Source: Ruficoccus sp. ZRK36 (lineage in GTDB: Bacteria; Verrucomicrobiota; Verrucomicrobiia; Opitutales; Cerasicoccaceae). From it: DNA of 64,000 bases. The notes below the pieces were generated by a model. It was not told the origin of the DNA. It saw only the letters and a list, made by a program, of their open reading frames with translations, and did not search any database. The stretch is taken from contig NZ_CP080649.1 of NCBI RefSeq assembly GCF_019603315.1, forward strand, positions 1,317,501 through 1,381,500, read 5' to 3'. The stretch's first letter is position 1. Each line of letters starts with the position of its first letter. Positions 7,210-54,599 of this stretch are shown here, in pieces. The position numbers were made by a program, and so were the translations under genes.

Positions 7210-7443
7210 CGGCGAAGCGCCGGATGCAACCCGCACTCCGGCTGGAGCGGCATTGAGGCCTCCGCTTAGGCGGAGTCATGGCCGGGTTGCACCCGGGGGA
7301 CTGGGGCCTTGACCTGGAGCGTCGGTCTGGGCAACGGCGGTTGACGCCCATTCACGCGAACTCCGCCTGCGCAGTAAAAACTCTCGGGGTAGGCACGCAG
7401 CGCCGTAGGGGCAGAGCCCCTCAGTGCTAGCGGGTGCCACCCG
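7210..7443. repeat. Hairpin mosaic locus B (foldase / yihY gap)
   Basis: A run of palindromes: CGGCG-AAG-CGCCG (7210-7222), CTCCGC-TTAG-GCGGAG (7260-7275), CCGGGT-TGC-ACCCGG (7282-7296), GGGGC-AGA-GCCCC (7408-7420) and CGGGT-GCC-ACCCG (7431-7443). The middle part (about 7329-7366, GGGCAACGG...GAACTCC) recurs at loci C and G. GGGGTAGGCACGCAG followed by GCCGTAGGGGC (7386-7412) recurs at C and E. The last hairpin lies inside the 3' end of yihY on the minus strand, and the TAG stop of that gene falls in the module's flank. The order of modules matches locus C in part, with different spacers. Confidence 0.85.
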
Positions 7444-8950
7444 CGGCGAAAAGCTCTTTGAGGCTTTTGCTGCCGGACTCGGTGGAGGAGTAGTCCAGGA
7501 GCTTTTCCTCGTAAGCATTGAGCACGGAGTCGGAGTACTTGATCAGGTCCACGCCTTCATTGTTACCGCGGGTTTCCAGCCGGTTCTTAAAGTCGCCCAG
7601 AGTGATGCGCTCCAGCGGGCGGGCTGGCTGGTAGCGGGAGGATTCTTCGCGGGAGCCGGTCTCGTTTTCAACCGGGCTGAGGTAGCCGATGTCTACCAGT
7701 TGGGTCAGACACTCGTTGAGGATGTTACCGGGCACGCGGATTTTGTCCGCCAGTTCATCGGCGCTGTAGGCTTTTTGGCACTCGTCGAAGCGACGGGAGA
7801 CCAGCAGCAGTGCGACGAGCGAAAGCGTTTCCCGGGTGCGCAGGCTGACGTTTTCCCACGCGCGCTGATTGGTCAGGTTATTGACGTTCTGGATGGCAAA
7901 GGAGAGCTGTCCGCCCAGCAGCAGAATGACCCAGAACAACCATAGCCCGAACAGGAAAATCGGCAGAAAGCTCACAACCCCCAGCAGGCTGCCCTGCCGG
8001 ATGACGAAGCCCACGTAGACAAAGCTCAGCCATTTGCTGGCATTGAGCAGGAGGGTGACGACCAATGCCCCGAGGAAAGCGGGCTTCCAGCGCACGTGGG
8101 TATTCGGGATAAAGCGGTTAAAGATGGCTACGAGGGCGACGACGCTGATGAAGGTCCACAGGGGCGCGAGCCACAGAAACGAGTCCTTGAAAAGGTAGCC
8201 GAGCGGGATGTGGTCGAACTGCTGGGCGATGCGCCCGTACACACCGAGGCTGACCGAGGTAAAGCCCAGGACTGTGCCGAGGCTGATTAACGTCCAGTAA
8301 AAGACGATCCGCTGGACGATGCTGCGGGCCTGCCTCACCCCCCATATCTGGTTAAAGGTTTTCTCGATCGTGGAGAGCAGTTGGACGCTGAGCCAGATCA
8401 GCACAAGCGAGCCGACCAAACCGAGTGAGCCCGAGCGCGCATTGCGCACCACGCCCTTGAGGAACTCCACCACGCGGGGGTCTACGGATACTTTTTCCGA
8501 GTCTCCGTCCTCCTGCTTGAGCGCGATTTCCTTTCCGTCGGCCTCGGGTTCATAGGCATCGAGCTCCAGACGTGCTGCCTGTTCGGCCGGGGGAGCTACG
8601 AAATAAATGAGCTTGGTCAGATTATCGACAATGACATCTTCGGCGTCGTCGCCTTTGAGGACAAAGCCCGAGACCATGATGACGATGGCCAACAGGGGGC
8701 CGATTGCGATCAGTGTATAGTAGCTGAGTGCGCCTGCCTGACTGGGGATGAGGTTCCGCAAGACACCTTCCCAGGTGATGGAGAGGACCCGCAGCACGGC
8801 AAAGCCCGAGCCACGGAGGCTCTTGTCGTCGACTTTCTCGGCCTGCCAGATCTCGTTCCCGATCAGGTGCGGGACGGAGACGATCCAGTCTTTCGCCTTA
8901 GTGAAAGCCTGGGCGAGGCGTGAGGGCTTCTGAGGCTTGTCGTTCGACAT
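7427..8950 (-). CDS. YihY/BrkB family inner-membrane protein
   Basis: 507-residue polytopic membrane protein of the YihY/virulence factor BrkB family. Members are often annotated as transporters, but their true role is unsettled. The family region spans residues ~50-320, with SQAGALSYYTLIAIGPLL at the first helix, a GSLGLVGSLVLIWLSVQLL helix and an FLPIFLFGLWLFWVILLLGG helix. A ~70-residue charged loop sits between helices 1 and 2. The C-terminal ~180 residues are soluble and include a winged-helix-like segment (YSADELADKIRVPGNILNECL), as in longer family members. The last residues (GGTR) and the stop are encoded inside repeat locus B, so the C-terminus was probably reshaped by the repeat. 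Confidence 0.88.
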   Translation of the reverse strand: MSNDKPQKPSRLAQAFTKAKDWIVSVPHLIGNEIWQAEKVDDKSLRGSGFAVLRVLSITWEGVLRNLIPSQAGALSYYTLIAIGPLLAIVIMVSGFVLKGDDAEDVIVDNLTKLIYFVAPPAEQAARLELDAYEPEADGKEIALKQEDGDSEKVSVDPRVVEFLKGVVRNARSGSLGLVGSLVLIWLSVQLLSTIEKTFNQIWGVRQARSIVQRIVFYWTLISLGTVLGFTSVSLGVYGRIAQQFDHIPLGYLFKDSFLWLAPLWTFISVVALVAIFNRFIPNTHVRWKPAFLGALVVTLLLNASKWLSFVYVGFVIRQGSLLGVVSFLPIFLFGLWLFWVILLLGGQLSFAIQNVNNLTNQRAWENVSLRTRETLSLVALLLVSRRFDECQKAYSADELADKIRVPGNILNECLTQLVDIGYLSPVENETGSREESSRYQPARPLERITLGDFKNRLETRGNNEGVDLIKYSDSVLNAYEEKLLDYSSTESGSKSLKELFAAGGTR

Positions 8951-11982: not shown

Positions 11983-12311
11983 CCAGGACAAAGTCCTGGA
12001 CCTGTGATGCTTACGCATCACTGATGCCTCCGCCAACGCGGAGGCATGGCCGGGTTACACCCGGTGGTACTCCTTCTGAAGGAGCATGGGCAACGGTAGT
12101 TGATGCCGATGCACACGAACTCCTCTTACCCAGCTGATGGCGCACGGGGCAGCGAACGCAGTGAGCGATGGGGCGGAGCCCCATGATTGTCCAGTGCGGT
12201 CACGCACGGGCGGAGTCCCATGAGTGTCGAGCGCGGTCACGCACCTCCCCAAATGCCAGCAGGTGTAACCTGTGGGGTAGGCACGCAGTGCCGTAGGGGC
12301 GAAGCCCCTCA
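11983..12311. repeat. Hairpin mosaic locus C with a 37-bp tandem duplication
   Basis: Fills the gap between convergent accA and the IPT lipoprotein gene. Perfect hairpins: CCAGGAC-AAA-GTCCTGG (11983-11999), GTGATGC-TTAC-GCATCAC (12004-12021), ATGCCTCCGC-CAAC-GCGGAGGCAT (12024-12047), CCGGGT-TAC-ACCCGG (12050-12064), CTCCTT-CTG-AAGGAG (12070-12084), CAGGT-GTA-ACCTG (12260-12272) and GGGGC-GAA-GCCCC (12296-12308). Two adjacent 37-bp copies (12171-12207 and 12208-12244) start GGGCGGAG and end GGTCACGCAC, with a few mismatches. The stretch 12141-12183 is the inverted counterpart of 54283-54322 at locus F. The part at 12088-12125 matches loci B and G. Confidence 0.87.
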
Positions 12312-14534: not shown

Positions 14535-14736
14535 CTGGGGGCTTCACGCCCCCAGACCCCGCGGCAGGCAAAGCCTGCACTTTCGGTTCAGTGCCCGAGC
14601 TTCGCTCAAGCACTGAACCGCTATTGAAGTCTCTCCTGACGCGACCCGCCCAAAGGGCTGCATGTGCCTTCAGTAAACGCCAACGTAATGCGCGGCATCG
14701 AAAGTGCAGGATACATGCTGGTCCAGTGGGACCAGC
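14535..14736. repeat. Hairpin mosaic locus D, with 12-bp terminal inverted repeats
   Basis: Between convergent hemW and the response regulator gene. Hairpins: CTGGGGGC-loop-GCCCCCAG (14535-14555), GCAGGC-AAA-GCCTGC (14564-14578), GGTTCAGTGC...GCACTGAACC (14585-14619, with inner GAGC-TTC-GCTC) and GCTGGTCC-AGTG-GGACCAGC (14717-14736). CCTGCACTTTCG (14574-14585) and CGAAAGTGCAGG (14699-14710) are exact inverted copies and bound a 137-bp unit, like the ends of a small mobile element. The second and third hairpins recur at locus E with compensatory changes. Confidence 0.85.
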
Positions 14737-23820: not shown

Positions 23821-24765
23821 ATGAAACACTTTCTGAAAGTGACCGATTTTTCGGCCGACGAGGCCGAAGTGATTTTCCAGAACGCCGCCGAGTTTAAGCG
23901 CCTGGGCCGTAACACGCCTGCCTTGCTCCAGCGCCAGTCCTGGGGGATGCTCTTCTATAAGAACAGCACGCGTACGCGTGTGTCCTTTGAGGTCGGGCTG
24001 AACGAGCTGGGTGCGCACGCCGTGATGCTCAGCGCCGGTAATACCCAGCTGAGCCGTGGCGAGACGGTGGCCGACACCGCGCGGGTGCTTTCACGCTACC
24101 TGTCCGGTATGATCATCCGCTGCTACGATCACAGCCTGGTCGAGGAGTTCGCAGCTGCCGGCACCATTCCTGTCGTCAACGCCCTCACGGACCTGACGCA
24201 CCCCTGCCAGCTCTACGCGGATCTGTTTACGCTGGCCGAGCGCTGGACCCCCGGTGATGGCCAGGCTGACATTGAGTCGCTCAAGGGCCGCAAGGTCGCC
24301 TTCCTCGGGGATACCGCCTGCAACATGGCCAACTCGTGGATTCTCTCTGCTGCCCAGTTTGGGATGGAGATCACGCTGGCCGGACCTACGGAGTTTGCTC
24401 CCGGCAACCAAGTGCGCGAGCTGCTCAAGAAGGCTGATCTGCCCGAGACTTTCAAGTTTACCACGGACGCCCGCGAAGCTGCCCAGGGCGCTGATGTGGT
24501 CTACACCGATGTGTGGGTGAGCATGGGTAACGAGGCCGAGGAAGCCGCACGCCTCGCCCAGATGAAGCCCTTCTCCGTCACCTCAGCGGTGATGGCCGAG
24601 GCCGCCAAGGACGCGTACTTCATGCACTGTCTGCCCGCCCACGTCGGGCAGGAGGTCACGCAGGAAGTCCTCGACAGCCCCGCCTCCATCGTCTTCGACG
24701 AGGCAGAAAACCGCCTCCACATCCAGAAGGCCATTCTCGCCAGCCTGTCCGGTGAACCCCGCTAG
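23821..24765 (+). CDS. argF: Ornithine carbamoyltransferase
   Basis: Forms citrulline from ornithine and carbamoyl phosphate. 314 residues with the carbamoyl-phosphate loop STRTRVSFEVGLNELG near residues 50-65, HPCQLYADLFT, FLGDTACNMANSW, VYTDVWVSMG and the catalytic HCLPAHVGQE at about 268-277. Last gene of argCJBDF. The TAG stop is followed after one base by a perfect hairpin (CGGGT-TGC-ACCCG), the same arrangement as at argG far away at 54.26 kb. argG and argH are not in this operon. Confidence 0.97.
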   Translation: MKHFLKVTDFSADEAEVIFQNAAEFKRLGRNTPALLQRQSWGMLFYKNSTRTRVSFEVGLNELGAHAVMLSAGNTQLSRGETVADTARVLSRYLSGMIIRCYDHSLVEEFAAAGTIPVVNALTDLTHPCQLYADLFTLAERWTPGDGQADIESLKGRKVAFLGDTACNMANSWILSAAQFGMEITLAGPTEFAPGNQVRELLKKADLPETFKFTTDAREAAQGADVVYTDVWVSMGNEAEEAARLAQMKPFSVTSAVMAEAAKDAYFMHCLPAHVGQEVTQEVLDSPASIVFDEAENRLHIQKAILASLSGEPR

Positions 24766-24766
24766 A

Positions 24767-25007
24767 CGGGTTGCACCCGCTGGCATTGACTTGGGGGCTG
24801 CGCTCGCCCAAACCGCGCGGCAGGCGAAGCCTGCACTTTCGGTCCAGTGTCCGAGCTTCGCTCAAACACTGGACCGCTATTGAGTTTTCCCCTGATGTGG
24901 GCCACCCAGTTTAGATGCTCTGCTCAGCGATTACTGGGGCGTCGCTTTTCTATTCGTAGGCTTGTTGCTGGGGTAGGCGCGCAGTGCCGTAGGGGCGGAG
25001 CCCCTCA
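24767..25007. repeat. Hairpin mosaic locus E (argF / phosphatase gap)
   Basis: CGGGT-TGC-ACCCG (24767-24779) starts one base after the argF stop and is followed by CTGGCATTGA, as at argG. GCAGGC-GAA-GCCTGC (24820-24834) and GGTCCAGTGT...ACACTGGACC (24841-24875, inner GAGC-TTC-GCTC) are copies of locus D hairpins. Two of the outer pairs change on both sides (T:A to C:G and C:G to T:A). GGGGTAGGCGCGCAG followed by GCCGTAGGGGC and GGAGCCCC (24970-25004) matches loci B and C; its GGGGC-loop-GCCCC stem abuts the TGA stop (25005-25007) of the convergent phosphatase gene. Confidence 0.87.
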
Positions 25008-32215: not shown

Positions 32216-32301
32216 GACGAAGCTCGTTTGAATTGGCGTTAATCACCGTTGCCCATGGCTCCACCTTCGTGGAGCCATCAGTGCCAGCGGAGGTACTCCG
32301 C
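32216..32301. repeat. Hairpin mosaic locus G (sufS 3' side)
   Basis: GCGGAG-GTA-CTCCGC (32287-32301) forms a perfect stem whose last base is also the G of the sufS TAG stop on the minus strand. The flank that follows on that strand, CTGGCACTGATGG, matches the flank after the argG hairpin. ATGGCTCCAC-CTTC-GTGGAGCCAT (32255-32278) is the next palindrome. The outer part (32216-32254) matches the GGGCAACGG...GAACTCC module of loci B and C in inverted orientation. Confidence 0.85.
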
Positions 32302-33569
32302 TAGCCGAGGAAGAGGCGGCGGATTTTATTCAGGCTGGTAATGAGTGCGTCGATTTCCTCGCGAGTATTATAAAAGGCGAAGGAGGCGCGGGTGGTGCCG
32401 GTCAGCCCGAAGCGCTCCCACAGCGGCATGGTGCAGTGGTGCCCGGTACGCACGGCGATGCCGTCCATATCGAGCATCGTGCCGATGTCGTTGGGGTGGA
32501 GCCCGTCGATCATAAAGGAAATGAGTGAGACCTTTTCGGCTGCGCGACCGTAAATGGTCAGCCCCTCTATCTGCTGAAGCTGGGCGGTGGCATAGGCGAG
32601 CAGGTCCTGCTCCTGGGCGGCGATGGCCTCATGGCCAATGCTGTCCAGGTAGTCAAAGGCGGCGGCCAGGCCGATGGCACCGGCGATGTTCGGAGTGCCT
32701 GCCTCGAAGCGCTCCGGCAGCCCGCGAAAGGTCGTCCCGGAGAAGCTCACCACGTCGATCATGTCACCACCGCCCTGATAGGGGGGCATGGCGCCGAGCA
32801 GGGCGGCCTTACCGTAGAGGACGCCGATCCCGGTGGGGCCGAAAATCTTGTGCCCGCTGCACACGAACCAGTCGCAGTCCAGATCGCGCACGTCGATCTT
32901 CATGTGGGCGCTGGACTGTGCCCCGTCCAGCAGGACTGGCACGCCCTTGGCGTGGGCTTTGGCGATCATGGCCTTGGCCGGATTGACCGTGCCGAGCGAG
33001 TTGGAGGCGTGGCAAAAGGCGGCCAGCTTCGTGCGCGGGCTGATGAGCTTTTCCCACTCTTCGACGAGTAGCTCGCCCTCATCTGAAATCGGGGCGACCA
33101 CGAGCTTGATGCCGAGGCGCGTTTCGAGCATCTGCCACGGGACGATGTTGGCGTGGTGCTCCATCACGGTGAGCAGCACCTCGTCACCCGCCTGGAGGTT
33201 GGCCCCGCCCCACGAGCTGGCCACGAGGTTAATCGCCTCGGTGGCCCCGCGGGTGAAGATACATTCGCGGGCCTCGGCGGCATTGAGATAGCGGGCCACG
33301 GTCTCGCGGGCGGCTTCGTAGGCACCAGTGGCCTCCTGGCTGAGCACGTGCACACCGCGGTGGATGTTGGCGTGCTCGTGGGCGTAGTAGTGCTCCAGGC
33401 GGTTGATGACGGCGCGCGGTTTTTGCGAGGAAGCACCGTTGTCGAGATAGATCAAGGGCTTGCCGTTGACCTCACGTCCGAGAATGGGAAAGTCCTGACG
33501 CCACGCTGCGATCGTTTCCGGAGAAGGCCGATCTGCGAGCAGGGTTTCTGTCTGCTTATTTGGAATCAT
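32301..33569 (-). CDS. sufS: Cysteine desulfurase SufS
   Basis: PLP enzyme that pulls sulfur from cysteine for Fe-S cluster assembly by the SUF system. 422 residues. Segments: GKPLIYLDNGASSQKP, HANIHRGVHVLSQEAT, TRGATEAINLVASSWG, TVMEHHANIVPWQ, the PLP lysine in SGHKIFGPTGIGVLYGK, and the catalytic cysteine in RTGHHCTMPLWERFGL. I place the start at 33569 (MIPNKQTE); 28 earlier codons are possible but lack family similarity. It is divergent from sufU with 112 bp between starts. No sufBCD in the window. The TAG stop forms part of a repeat hairpin. Confidence 0.95.
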   Translation of the reverse strand: MIPNKQTETLLADRPSPETIAAWRQDFPILGREVNGKPLIYLDNGASSQKPRAVINRLEHYYAHEHANIHRGVHVLSQEATGAYEAARETVARYLNAAEARECIFTRGATEAINLVASSWGGANLQAGDEVLLTVMEHHANIVPWQMLETRLGIKLVVAPISDEGELLVEEWEKLISPRTKLAAFCHASNSLGTVNPAKAMIAKAHAKGVPVLLDGAQSSAHMKIDVRDLDCDWFVCSGHKIFGPTGIGVLYGKAALLGAMPPYQGGGDMIDVVSFSGTTFRGLPERFEAGTPNIAGAIGLAAAFDYLDSIGHEAIAAQEQDLLAYATAQLQQIEGLTIYGRAAEKVSLISFMIDGLHPNDIGTMLDMDGIAVRTGHHCTMPLWERFGLTGTTRASFAFYNTREEIDALITSLNKIRRLFLG

Positions 33570-33681: not shown

Positions 33682-34113
33682 ATGCCGCTGACTCCGGAGC
33701 TTTATCAGGAAATCCTGCTCGACCACAGCAAGCACCCGCGTGGGCAGGGGCTGCTGGCTGCGCCTGCCTACCGGGCCGAGGCTGAGAACCCGGAGGCCGG
33801 GGACAAGGTGCGGCTGACTCTGGAAACAGGTGCGGACGGTACCATCACTGCTGTGGGCTGGGAAGCGGCTGGAAGCGCCGTGCTGCGGGCCTCGTGCTCC
33901 CTCATGGGGGAGCGTATCCGTGGGCTGACGGTCCCCGAGGCACAGGCCTTGGCGGAGCGCTTTCGGAGCTTCCTGACCGGAGCTGAGCCGGACGAGGCGG
34001 AGACGGACTACTGGGAAGATGTGGCCGCGCTGGGAGGCATTCGCCACCTGCCGCCCCGCGTCAAGTGCGCCATGCTCCCGTGGCGGGCCCTGCTCGCCGT
34101 CGAGGGTGAGTGA
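33682..34113 (+). CDS. sufU: SufU-like Fe-S assembly protein with two metal ligands missing
   Basis: 143 residues of the SufU/NifU_N fold, expected to receive persulfide sulfur from SufS through a Zn site of three Cys and one Asp. LYQEILLDHSKHPRG matches the N-terminus and RVKCAMLPWRAL keeps the C-terminal Cys. However, the NPxCGD motif is NPEAGD (Cys to Ala) and the GxGC-type motif is AAGSAVLRAS (Cys to Ser). Only the Asp and one Cys remain. The insert between GD and the final Cys has normal length. It may be a structural or regulatory variant, or a true SufU elsewhere may serve SufS. I chose ATG 33682; a GTG at 33664 adds six residues. Confidence 0.82.
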   Translation: MPLTPELYQEILLDHSKHPRGQGLLAAPAYRAEAENPEAGDKVRLTLETGADGTITAVGWEAAGSAVLRASCSLMGERIRGLTVPEAQALAERFRSFLTGAEPDEAETDYWEDVAALGGIRHLPPRVKCAMLPWRALLAVEGE

Positions 34114-34114
34114 T

Positions 34115-34177
34115 GGCATTTTCTCCTGAAAATGCCTGGGTGACCCGTAGGATTACAGGTGCAGGACTCTGTCCTGC
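34115..34177. repeat. Hairpin locus H (sufU / membrane protein gap)
   Basis: Two perfect stems fill the gap between convergent genes. GGCATTTTC-TCCT-GAAAATGCC (34115-34136) begins one base after the sufU stop. GCAGGAC-TCT-GTCCTGC (34161-34177) ends on the first base of the CTA that is the TAG stop of the next gene, the same geometry as sufS at locus G. The sequences do not match modules elsewhere, but the stop-adjacent layout with 3-4 nt loops does. Confidence 0.7.
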
Positions 34178-53017: not shown

Positions 53018-54259
53018 ATGAAGATTGTCCTGGCATACTCAGGCGGGCTCGATACGTCCGTCCTGGTCAAGTGGTTGAAAGAAGAATACTCGGCCGAGAT
53101 CGTGACCTTTGCCGCCGACGTCGGCCAGCAGGAAGAGCTGGACGGCCTCGAAGAAAAGGCCAAGGCCACCGGCGCGGTCGCCCACTACACGCTCGATCTG
53201 GTCGAGGAGTTCGCCAGTGATTTCATCTACCCGATGATGCGCGCCAACGCCATCTACGAGGGCCAGTACTACCTGGGCACCTCCATCGCGCGCCCGCTCA
53301 TCAGCAAGCATCACATCGAGATCGCCCGCCAGGAAGGCGCCACGCACGTGGCCCACGGTGCGACCGGTAAGGGTAACGACCAGTGCCGTTTCGAGCTCGG
53401 CTATGCCGCGCTTGCTCCGGATCTGGAAATCATTTCGCCGTGGCGCATGGACAAGTTCCGCAAGGCCTTCCCGGGCCGTAAGGAAATGATCGACTGGTGC
53501 CGCGAACAGGGCGTCAACGTCGAGGCCAGCGCTTCCAAGCCGTACTCGATGGACCGCAACCTCCTGCACATTTCCTACGAGGCCGGTATCCTCGAAGACC
53601 CGTGGTTCGACCCGACCACACCGGAGAACAAGGCCATGTTCAAGCTGACGACCTCCCCCGAGGACGCGCCCGATCAGGCCGAGTACGTCGAGCTGGACTT
53701 TGAAAAGGGCGACTGCGTGGCCGTCAACGGCGAAGCTCTCTCGCCCGCGGGCGTCATGCTCAAGCTCAACGCCCTCGCCGGTAAGCACGGCATCGGCCGC
53801 ATCGATATCGTCGAAAACCGTTTCGTGGGCATGAAGAGCCGCGGCGTCTATGAGACCCCCGGTGGCACCATCCTGCTGCACGGCCACAAGCAGGTCGAGT
53901 CCCTCACCATGGACCGCGATCTCGAGCACCTGCGCGACGGCCTCATCCCGAAGTACGCCGAGCTCGTCTACAATGGCTTTTGGTACGCTCCCGAGCGTGA
54001 AGCGCTCCAGGCCTTCATCGACGAGTCCCAGAAGAGCGTCACCGGCACCGTCCGCCTCAAGCTTTACAAGGGCAACATCATCACCGTCGGCCGTAAGTCC
54101 CCGGTCTCGCTCTACGACGAAAACATCGCCTCGATGGAAGGCGTCAAGAGCGACTACAACCCGGACGACGCCAGCGGGTTCATCCACCTGCAAGGTCTGC
54201 GCCTGCGCGCCCGCGCCAAGGCTCAGGGTGGTCCCCGCCTCGGCGACCTGCGCAAATAG
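53018..54259 (+). CDS. argG: Argininosuccinate synthase
   Basis: Joins citrulline and aspartate with ATP, the step after ArgF. 413 residues. ATP pyrophosphatase motif [15 protein letters not shown] at residues 5-19, then [48 protein letters not shown] and [20 protein letters not shown] use ATG 53018 with GGGGG just ahead; a TTG at 53006 adds four residues. It is separate from argCJBDF at 19.4-24.8 kb; argH is not in the window. The TAG stop directly abuts the first hairpin of repeat locus F. Confidence 0.97.
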
Positions 54260-54599
54260 GCGGAGTGCCTCCGCTGGCATTGATGGGGCTCTGCCCCATC
54301 GCTCACTGCGTTCGCTGCCCCCCGGGGAAAACCACAAAGAATGCTGGTCCAGCCCGGACCTTTCGATAAAGGCCGAGTGCTACGCACTCGGCCTTTATCG
54401 TCTTTGAGGTTCACCCTGACGCGTGCCACGCCCAATGAGCAGCACACATCTTCAGCCCAAAATGGAGCAACCTAGTTTTGATGTTTATATCTCAGCGATT
54501 ACTTAAACCAGCCGCGCTGGTTTAAGTAATCGCTGACACGATGCGTAGCATCGAAAGTGCAGCCTGCTGCTGCTGCGGGTCTGGGCTGCACAAGCCCAG
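54260..54599. repeat. Hairpin mosaic locus F, with long perfect stems
   Basis: GCGGAG-TGC-CTCCGC (54260-54274) begins right after the argG TAG, followed by the shared flank CTGGCATTGATGG. Next come ATGGGGC-TCT-GCCCCAT (54283-54299), a 17-bp perfect stem with loop TAC (54364-54400), a 20-bp perfect stem with loop CGC (54493-54535), CGATGC-GTA-GCATCG (54539-54553), CGAAAGTGCAG (the right-end motif of locus D) and CTGGGCT-GCACA-AGCCCAG (54581-54599). Part of 54283-54322 is the inverted copy of the 12141-12183 block in locus C. No reading frame. Confidence 0.88.

Follow-up and report, generated by a model that had tools for sequence, protein, structure and literature searches.

What is the small hairpin that starts one base behind the stop codon of argF in Ruficoccus sp. 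ZRK36, and does its recurrence behind argG, some 29 kb away, tie the two arginine genes together? The argF gene, whose product is an ornithine carbamoyltransferase by NCBIfam, ends with a TAG at 24763..24765 of the forward strand. A single A separates this stop from the stem-loop CGGGT-TGC-ACCCG (24767..24779), which is followed by the conserved 3' linker CTGGCATTGA (24780..24789), as delimited by the sequence and by a covariance model that the copy matches with 42.2 bits. We refer to the 27-nt unit, composed of a stem of 5-7 bp, a 3-nt loop and the 3' linker TGGCAYTGA, as H1.

H1 copies in the window and in the genus

By the window we mean the whole 64,000-nt stretch of DNA analysed here. A preliminary description, made from its letters, had reported the hairpin and its flank at argF, argG, sufS and yihY, and all four copies are present. 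At argG the TAG stop, the stem-loop GCGGAG-TGC-CTCCGC and TGGCATTGA span 54257..54283 (forward strand, 41.6 bits), and at sufS a TAG, GCGGAG-TAC-CTCCGC and TGGCACTGA lie at 32278..32304 of the reverse strand (37.7 bits). The yihY copy, CGGGT-GGC-ACCCG, is found within the 3' end of the gene (7421..7447, reverse strand, 33.8 bits); since the TAG stop of yihY falls in the flank, this hairpin is translated. The flank, said to stay constant beside varying stems, is indeed common to the copies, but at argG and sufS one base had been counted twice, since the C with which CTGGCAYTGA begins already closes the stem (GCGGAG..CTCCGC TGGCA). With at most one mismatch, CTGGCAYTGA occurs 14 times in the window against a mean of 8.18 in shuffles, and 3 of 100 shuffles reach 14, so that the flank alone is weak evidence. 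The combination of hairpin and flank is far beyond chance: the four copies have E values from 1.3e-10 to 4.3e-08 under the covariance model, all four being among the 21 copies that built it.

Further hairpins lie next to these copies. Downstream of the argF H1, a mosaic hairpin array of family D2 occupies 24792..24908 on the forward strand; this 117-nt intergenic array is present at two sites of the window, being 83% identical to 14536-14652. The argG H1 is followed by a second module, TGGGGC-TCT-GCCCCA (54284..54298, forward strand, from sequence and fold), and the sufS H1, which is common to the orthologue in the congener G001, by a different second hairpin. Two partial H1-like hairpins lie in intergenic arrays of family D8, at 12049..12067 (19.2 bits, E 0.0011) and at 7281..7299 (19.3 bits, E 0.001), both on the forward strand. 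Taken alone, the 17-nt argF hairpin folds with -6.4 kcal/mol, the family median being -9.8 kcal/mol (68 copies). The fold of the argF array (24757-24905) has z = -3.53 relative to shuffles, and that of the argG region (54260-54340) is hardly better than its shuffles (z -1.14). Elsewhere in the window, between 61509 and 62753, neighbouring genes contain three similar 47-nt stretches (family D4), which we take to encode a prepilin-like N-terminus (FTLIELL).

The covariance model has 27 positions and 7 pairs, and its 21 copies were picked by hand. In the ZRK36 genome (3,759,138 bases, two contigs) it yields 89 matches at E <= 0.5, and in the three congeners G001, G002 and G003 it yields 27, 39 and 39, respectively; because 150 candidates were scored per genome (150 of 3413 first-look candidates in ZRK36), these counts may be incomplete. 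The exact sequence CTGGCATTGA occurs 31 times in the genome versus 3 times for the reversed control pattern. A scan for CCSGCTGGCAYTGA in 36 genomes, ZRK36 included, gave matches in the four genomes of the genus and at three loci of a family member from outside it, G008; one of the three (L035) matches the model, weakly (15.6 bits) and with no clean stem. H1 as found by these searches occurs almost only in its genus. The nearest record to argF in an orthologue search was Verrucomicrobiota bacterium JB024, with other Verrucomicrobiia and Cerasicoccus next in order; the organism is accordingly a verrucomicrobium, in our reading one of the Opitutales. Within the open-licence PMC literature we recognised no paper as describing H1.

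The counts below rest on 72 of 79 ZRK36 matches, seven partial or weak ones having been dropped and the weak L230 kept, and on 57 of 67 matches from other genomes, where ten duplicates of sites represented in two loci were removed and the weak L053 and L035 retained. The covariation and mismatch counts on ZRK36 matches drew on all 79.

Position relative to stop codons and the genes upstream

Measured to the conserved C of the stem, the distance from a coding-like stop is 0, 1 or 2 nt in 15, 16 and 5 ZRK36 copies, respectively (36 of 72); 40 of the 72 fall within 15 nt of such a stop, and 51 have a sense coding-like stop at most 60 nt upstream. In the other genomes 29 of 57 copies lie 0-2 nt past a coding-like stop. 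For 8 of the 72 and 13 of the 57 copies the search upstream yielded no coding-like stop. The abutment is one-sided, with 35 of 72 ZRK36 copies abutting on their 5' side and 0 of 72 on their 3' side, and with 28 of 57 versus 0 of 57 in the other set. The model includes 2-3 columns 5' of the stem, which slightly bias it towards stop-like letters; in our first pattern search, which had no columns upstream of the stem, many copies already abutted stops.

Among the 27-nt copies of ZRK36, 8 of 68 are internal to an ORF. A copy inside a gene end adds a short translated tail to the protein, e.g., AGCTRGH, AGCPRGQ or AGYTRGQ, which ends at the TGA of the linker; such copies are found at L089:2015-2041 (reverse strand), L119:1442-1468 (reverse), L123:1201-1227 (forward) and L213:1201-1227 (reverse), as well as at L234 and L268 of the congeners.

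Where H1 lies at a distance from the stop, the space between them sometimes holds an additional hairpin, one more H1 copy (L115, L033) or a short remnant of the GCAGG type. The GCAGG(GC) remnants in the gaps of L108, L269, L256 and L264 match the 5' arm of a stop-abutting hairpin, CAGGGC...GCCCTGCACC, and this likeness suggests that modules may have replaced one another. That some other hairpin always fills the gap between a stop and a distant H1 was not established. Half of the 28 gaps (17 from ZRK36, 11 from other genomes) reach a folding energy of -10 kcal/mol or lower (10 and 4, respectively). Sixteen of the gaps measure 20 nt or more, and 28% of the sampled 3' regions of matching length fold as well as these or better; the gap folds are thus not clearly above the background of a hairpin-rich genome.

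At 8 of 173 gene ends a stem of 6 bp or more begins 0-2 nt past the stop, as compared with 4 of 173 for starts at 30-32 nt and 0.4 expected from letter shuffles; these ends, each with at least 40 nt of space, came from 364 kb (the window plus sampled ZRK36 sequence). Our gene caller found only 0.68 genes per kb in this sequence, and so it misses genes and may also make wrong calls. The effect at stops is broader than H1 but modest. At 34113-34176 of the window two convergent genes lie 63 nt apart and each stop is abutted by a different hairpin, according to a crude gene caller, one of whose calls here conflicts with a longer ORF on the opposite strand and may be wrong.

We named 20 of the upstream proteins by NCBIfam: ornithine carbamoyltransferase, argininosuccinate synthase, SufS, YihY, GroES, GroEL, Rho, PurU, a SUI1-like protein, ribosomal protein S1, IspG, GlyS, MurA, a class I aldolase, DnaJ, EF-P, YebC, AtpC, NuoN and MetF, of which IspG (a partial frame) and the SUI1-like protein fall below the curated cut-offs. 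The H1-bearing genes are without an arginine theme. In ZRK36 one copy lies within the 119-nt gap between groES and groEL. In three of four species two further hairpins, TCATGGC-TGC-GCCATGA and a longer one containing A and T, are found 3' of H1 in this gap (from sequence, L094:1205-1323, L315 and L323).

Pairing, turnover among congeners and rival explanations

The stems had been described as differing among copies while remaining paired, the pattern expected of a structured element, and a larger alignment bears this out for the most part. Among 78 distinct ZRK36 matches all 7 pairs have changed on both sides (67 cells), and the covariation score is 0.391 as compared with 0.167 in shuffles and at most 0.058 when slid; 54 distinct matches from the other genomes score 0.275 against 0.108 in shuffles, both alignments having been fitted to the model. 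Further pair types, on the other hand, are no more numerous than in shuffles, 89 of 500 (ZRK36) and 401 of 500 (other genomes) reaching the observed number. At orthologous groES sites the stems differ by species, as CGGGT-TGC-ACCCG, CAGGT-TAC-ACCTG and CACGT-GAC-ACGTG, and orthologous purU and SUI1-like sites show a G-C versus U-A pair difference inside the stem. Mismatches at the six inner pairs comprise 9 G-U versus 17 A-C in ZRK36 and 2 versus 9 in the other genomes. A good part of the A-C excess resides in a single column, in which the base of the stem is overlapped by TAA stops; without that column there remain, by subtraction, 9 G-U and 9 A-C in all, and still no G-U bias. Since pairing on the mRNA strand thus lacks such a bias, a DNA palindrome without any RNA function is a serious rival.

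According to this rival, H1 would be selfish DNA that copies as single-stranded hairpins, stops would be the first insertion place that does not break the gene, and covariation would reflect maintenance of the palindrome in DNA. The translated copies in gene ends are in line with it, and so is the turnover of sites among congeners. From the 36 abutting ZRK36 genes we picked 21 by hand, and 62 of the 63 corresponding orthologous ends were found in G001, G002 and G003. H1 is absent from 54 of the 62, which makes it dispensable for those genes. It is clearly kept at 6 (at most 9 nt from the same stop, E <= 0.0012), namely at purU, rpsA and fba in G003, at sufS in G001 and at groES in G001 and G003, and weakly kept at two more, groES and rpsA in G002; a match ~140 nt past the groEL stop of G003 (L316) was left out. 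The P value of 6e-5 for 6 of 62 is too small, because sufS, purU and rpsA were known beforehand to be shared; without these genes 3 of 53 ends are shared (P 0.02). Read in the other direction, about 44 copies of the other genomes have a coding-like upstream gene and 9 of these genes have a ZRK36 orthologue that also carries H1, versus ~0.9 expected (P 2e-7, assuming 3500 genes in ZRK36; L258, whose partner is the weak L230, is not counted). By eye, a different hairpin directly follows the stop in the orthologues of fba in G002, of rho and purU in G001 and of ppiC in G003. Some genes, then, keep H1, and most of the orthologous sites tested either lack it or have exchanged it. What speaks against a purely selfish palindrome is that some sites are common to species, with paired differences between them, that abutment is one-sided (35 versus 0) and that the spike at 0-2 nt is, in our judgement, tighter than avoidance of coding DNA predicts.

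The enzymes of such repeats are also pertinent here. Searches with PF01797 for RAYT genes gave 0 matches in ZRK36, G002 and G003, 4 in G001 and matches in five of six other family members searched. No H1 lies near the RAYT genes in nine stretches (three with the matches of G001 and six others), and one weak H1 match (15.6 bits) is located ~6 kb from a RAYT in L277. Hitch-hiking of H1 with a RAYT in this genome was rejected, as ZRK36 gave no PF01797 match and the nine stretches of other genomes no H1 near their RAYT genes. That no RAYT was found in ZRK36 weighs against selfish spread; the RAYT genes that other family members carry amid other hairpin arrays, as judged by eye, speak for it. On balance we regard a selfish palindrome without further function as possible but somewhat unlikely. 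In L272, L273 and L277 to L280, RAYT-type genes are seen by eye between arrays of other short hairpins (e.g., CGGGGGTT..AACCCCCG in L272 and L273), and REP families of this lineage may have arisen from such arrangements.

Could H1 instead be a GTAG-type REP of the classical kind, with a terminal TAG that serves the upstream gene as its stop? GTAG REP termini often supply TAG stops, and O. terrae is rich in GTAG repeats, according to Di Nocera, De Gregorio and Rocco (2013; PMC3733652). In ZRK36, the stops that H1 abuts at 0-1 nt are TAG in 24 of 31 cases, an excess over the 71 of 243 sampled gene ends, and some GGGGC..GCCCC hairpins (34 of 186, counting both strands) are followed by TAC, which reads GTA on the opposite strand. 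The O. terrae of that survey is presumably Opitutus terrae, a verrucomicrobium. However, among 27-nt copies (68 from ZRK36, 54 from other genomes) a TAG stands directly before the stem only in abutting ones. In ZRK36, 24 of the 34 abutting copies have it, as against none of the 26 non-abutting and none of the 8 internal ones; for the other genomes the figures are 14 of 29, 0 of 22 and 0 of 3. TAA and TGA also occur among the abutting stops, and thus the TAG belongs to the gene and not to H1. The TAG as a part of H1 is ruled out by the 48 non-abutting 27-nt copies, none of which carries it, and the GTAG interpretation as a whole is improbable.

A GC-rich hairpin directly 3' of stop codons could equally be an intrinsic terminator of transcription for the arg genes and others. 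Yet none of 72 copies has at least 5 T in 8 nt, whether the count begins behind the stem, behind the linker or another 15 nt downstream, and a terminator scan called nothing on the sense strand at argF. Moreover, one copy separates groES from groEL, and U-tract terminators are seen by eye further downstream at fba of G003 and rpsA of G002. H1 is therefore not the terminator of these genes, and we give this explanation very little credence. Least credible is a regulatory RNA element specific to arginine biosynthesis, for which the argF and argG copies of this window are the only point in favour; neither it nor any other link between the two arg genes is supported, as H1 is dispersed behind rho, murA, glyS, groES, groEL, dnaJ, efp, rpsA, sufS, nuoN and others, is absent from the argF and argG orthologues of three congeners, and lies in a 64-kb window with 0 Rfam matches above the gathering score.

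A hairpin at the stop codon and its relation to known repeats

H1 is multi-copy, oriented to the gene that it abuts, often stop-abutting, covarying, variable in presence among relatives and free of a terminator U-tract. It is a real and well-structured dispersed repeat, ordinary in kind and unusual in its tight, oriented fit to stops. Our analysis favours, with a probability of about 0.55, a dispersed palindromic repeat of mobile origin that would be transcribed and would act as a 3' hairpin in the manner of the stop-proximal REPs of E. coli. Liang, Rudd and Deutscher reportedly dealt with such REPs, lying within 15 nt of the stop codon, in 2015. H1 would be the first thing transcribed 3' of the coding sequence, and with a stem starting 0-2 nt past the stop it would have to be melted by the terminating ribosome. 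Once the ribosome leaves, the hairpin would refold, block 3'-5' exonucleases and fix the mRNA 3' end near the stop. It may also slow termination, as reported of E. coli REPs at most 15 nt from the stop. Copies may have spread by recombination between modules, or through a mobilising enzyme not found in this genome. Several observations count against the 3' hairpin: there is no G-U bias, most orthologous sites are empty and the targeted orthologue test is weak without the three genes known beforehand; the argF hairpin is weak alone and the argG region has a z of only -1.14; and half of the copies lie away from stops, where the hairpins in their gaps are not clearly above background.

A more far-reaching and rather doubtful variant takes the stop codon as a docking point. 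H1 and several unrelated hairpins would then interchange, in fixed orientation, in the slot after the stop and provide genes with ready-made mRNA 3' ends, either through an enzyme that targets stops or through selection for a hairpin that meets the ribosome.

REPs have been known for decades, and whether they are parasites or elements of mRNA 3' ends is still unsettled. The H1 family is tagless, has one orientation and often starts exactly at stops, and its full and empty orthologous sites in relatives constitute natural pairs for the effects of a stop hairpin on termination, decay and protein yield. BIMEs and REPINs join several hairpin units in composite intergenic arrays. Like BIMEs, H1 often leads a mosaic array of further small hairpins. 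Unlike in BIMEs and REPINs, these arrays are made of dissimilar units and turn their H1 end towards the stop codon; in an unsystematic look we noticed no simple inverted pair of one REP as in REPINs.

The account in PMC3733652 covers GTAG and CGTC REPs near ORF 3' ends, with alternative stems of 5-13 bp, an often minimal loop and a rich set in O. terrae. H1 shares with the GTAG REPs of that account the short stem, the alternative complementary stems and a dispersed, often grouped, intergenic location near ORF 3' ends. In the broad sense of the term it is a REP, being a many-copy palindrome of 20-40 bp, mainly extragenic and 3' of genes, with alternative stems. It differs from the GTAG superfamily in having no terminal GTAG (0 of 48 non-abutting 27-nt copies) and no genomic RAYT flanked by the repeat, and furthermore in its one-sided abutment and its spike at 0-2 nt from the stop. 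With the GTAG tag absent and no RAYT found in the genome or beside H1, we class H1 as REP-like rather than as a member of the GTAG REPs.

According to PMC12306157, translation is lowered by E. coli REPs that lie less than 16 nt from the stop. H1 resembles these stop-proximal REPs in being close enough to meet the terminating ribosome (40 of 72 copies within 15 nt), and differs from them in sequence and in its concentration at 0-2 nt. In a small sample of E. coli REP units, with a crude gene caller, 0 of 17 lay within 2 nt of a stop and 1 of 17 within 15 nt. H1 is built like a REP, but without the tag typical of REPs and with an oriented placement that often begins at the stop itself.
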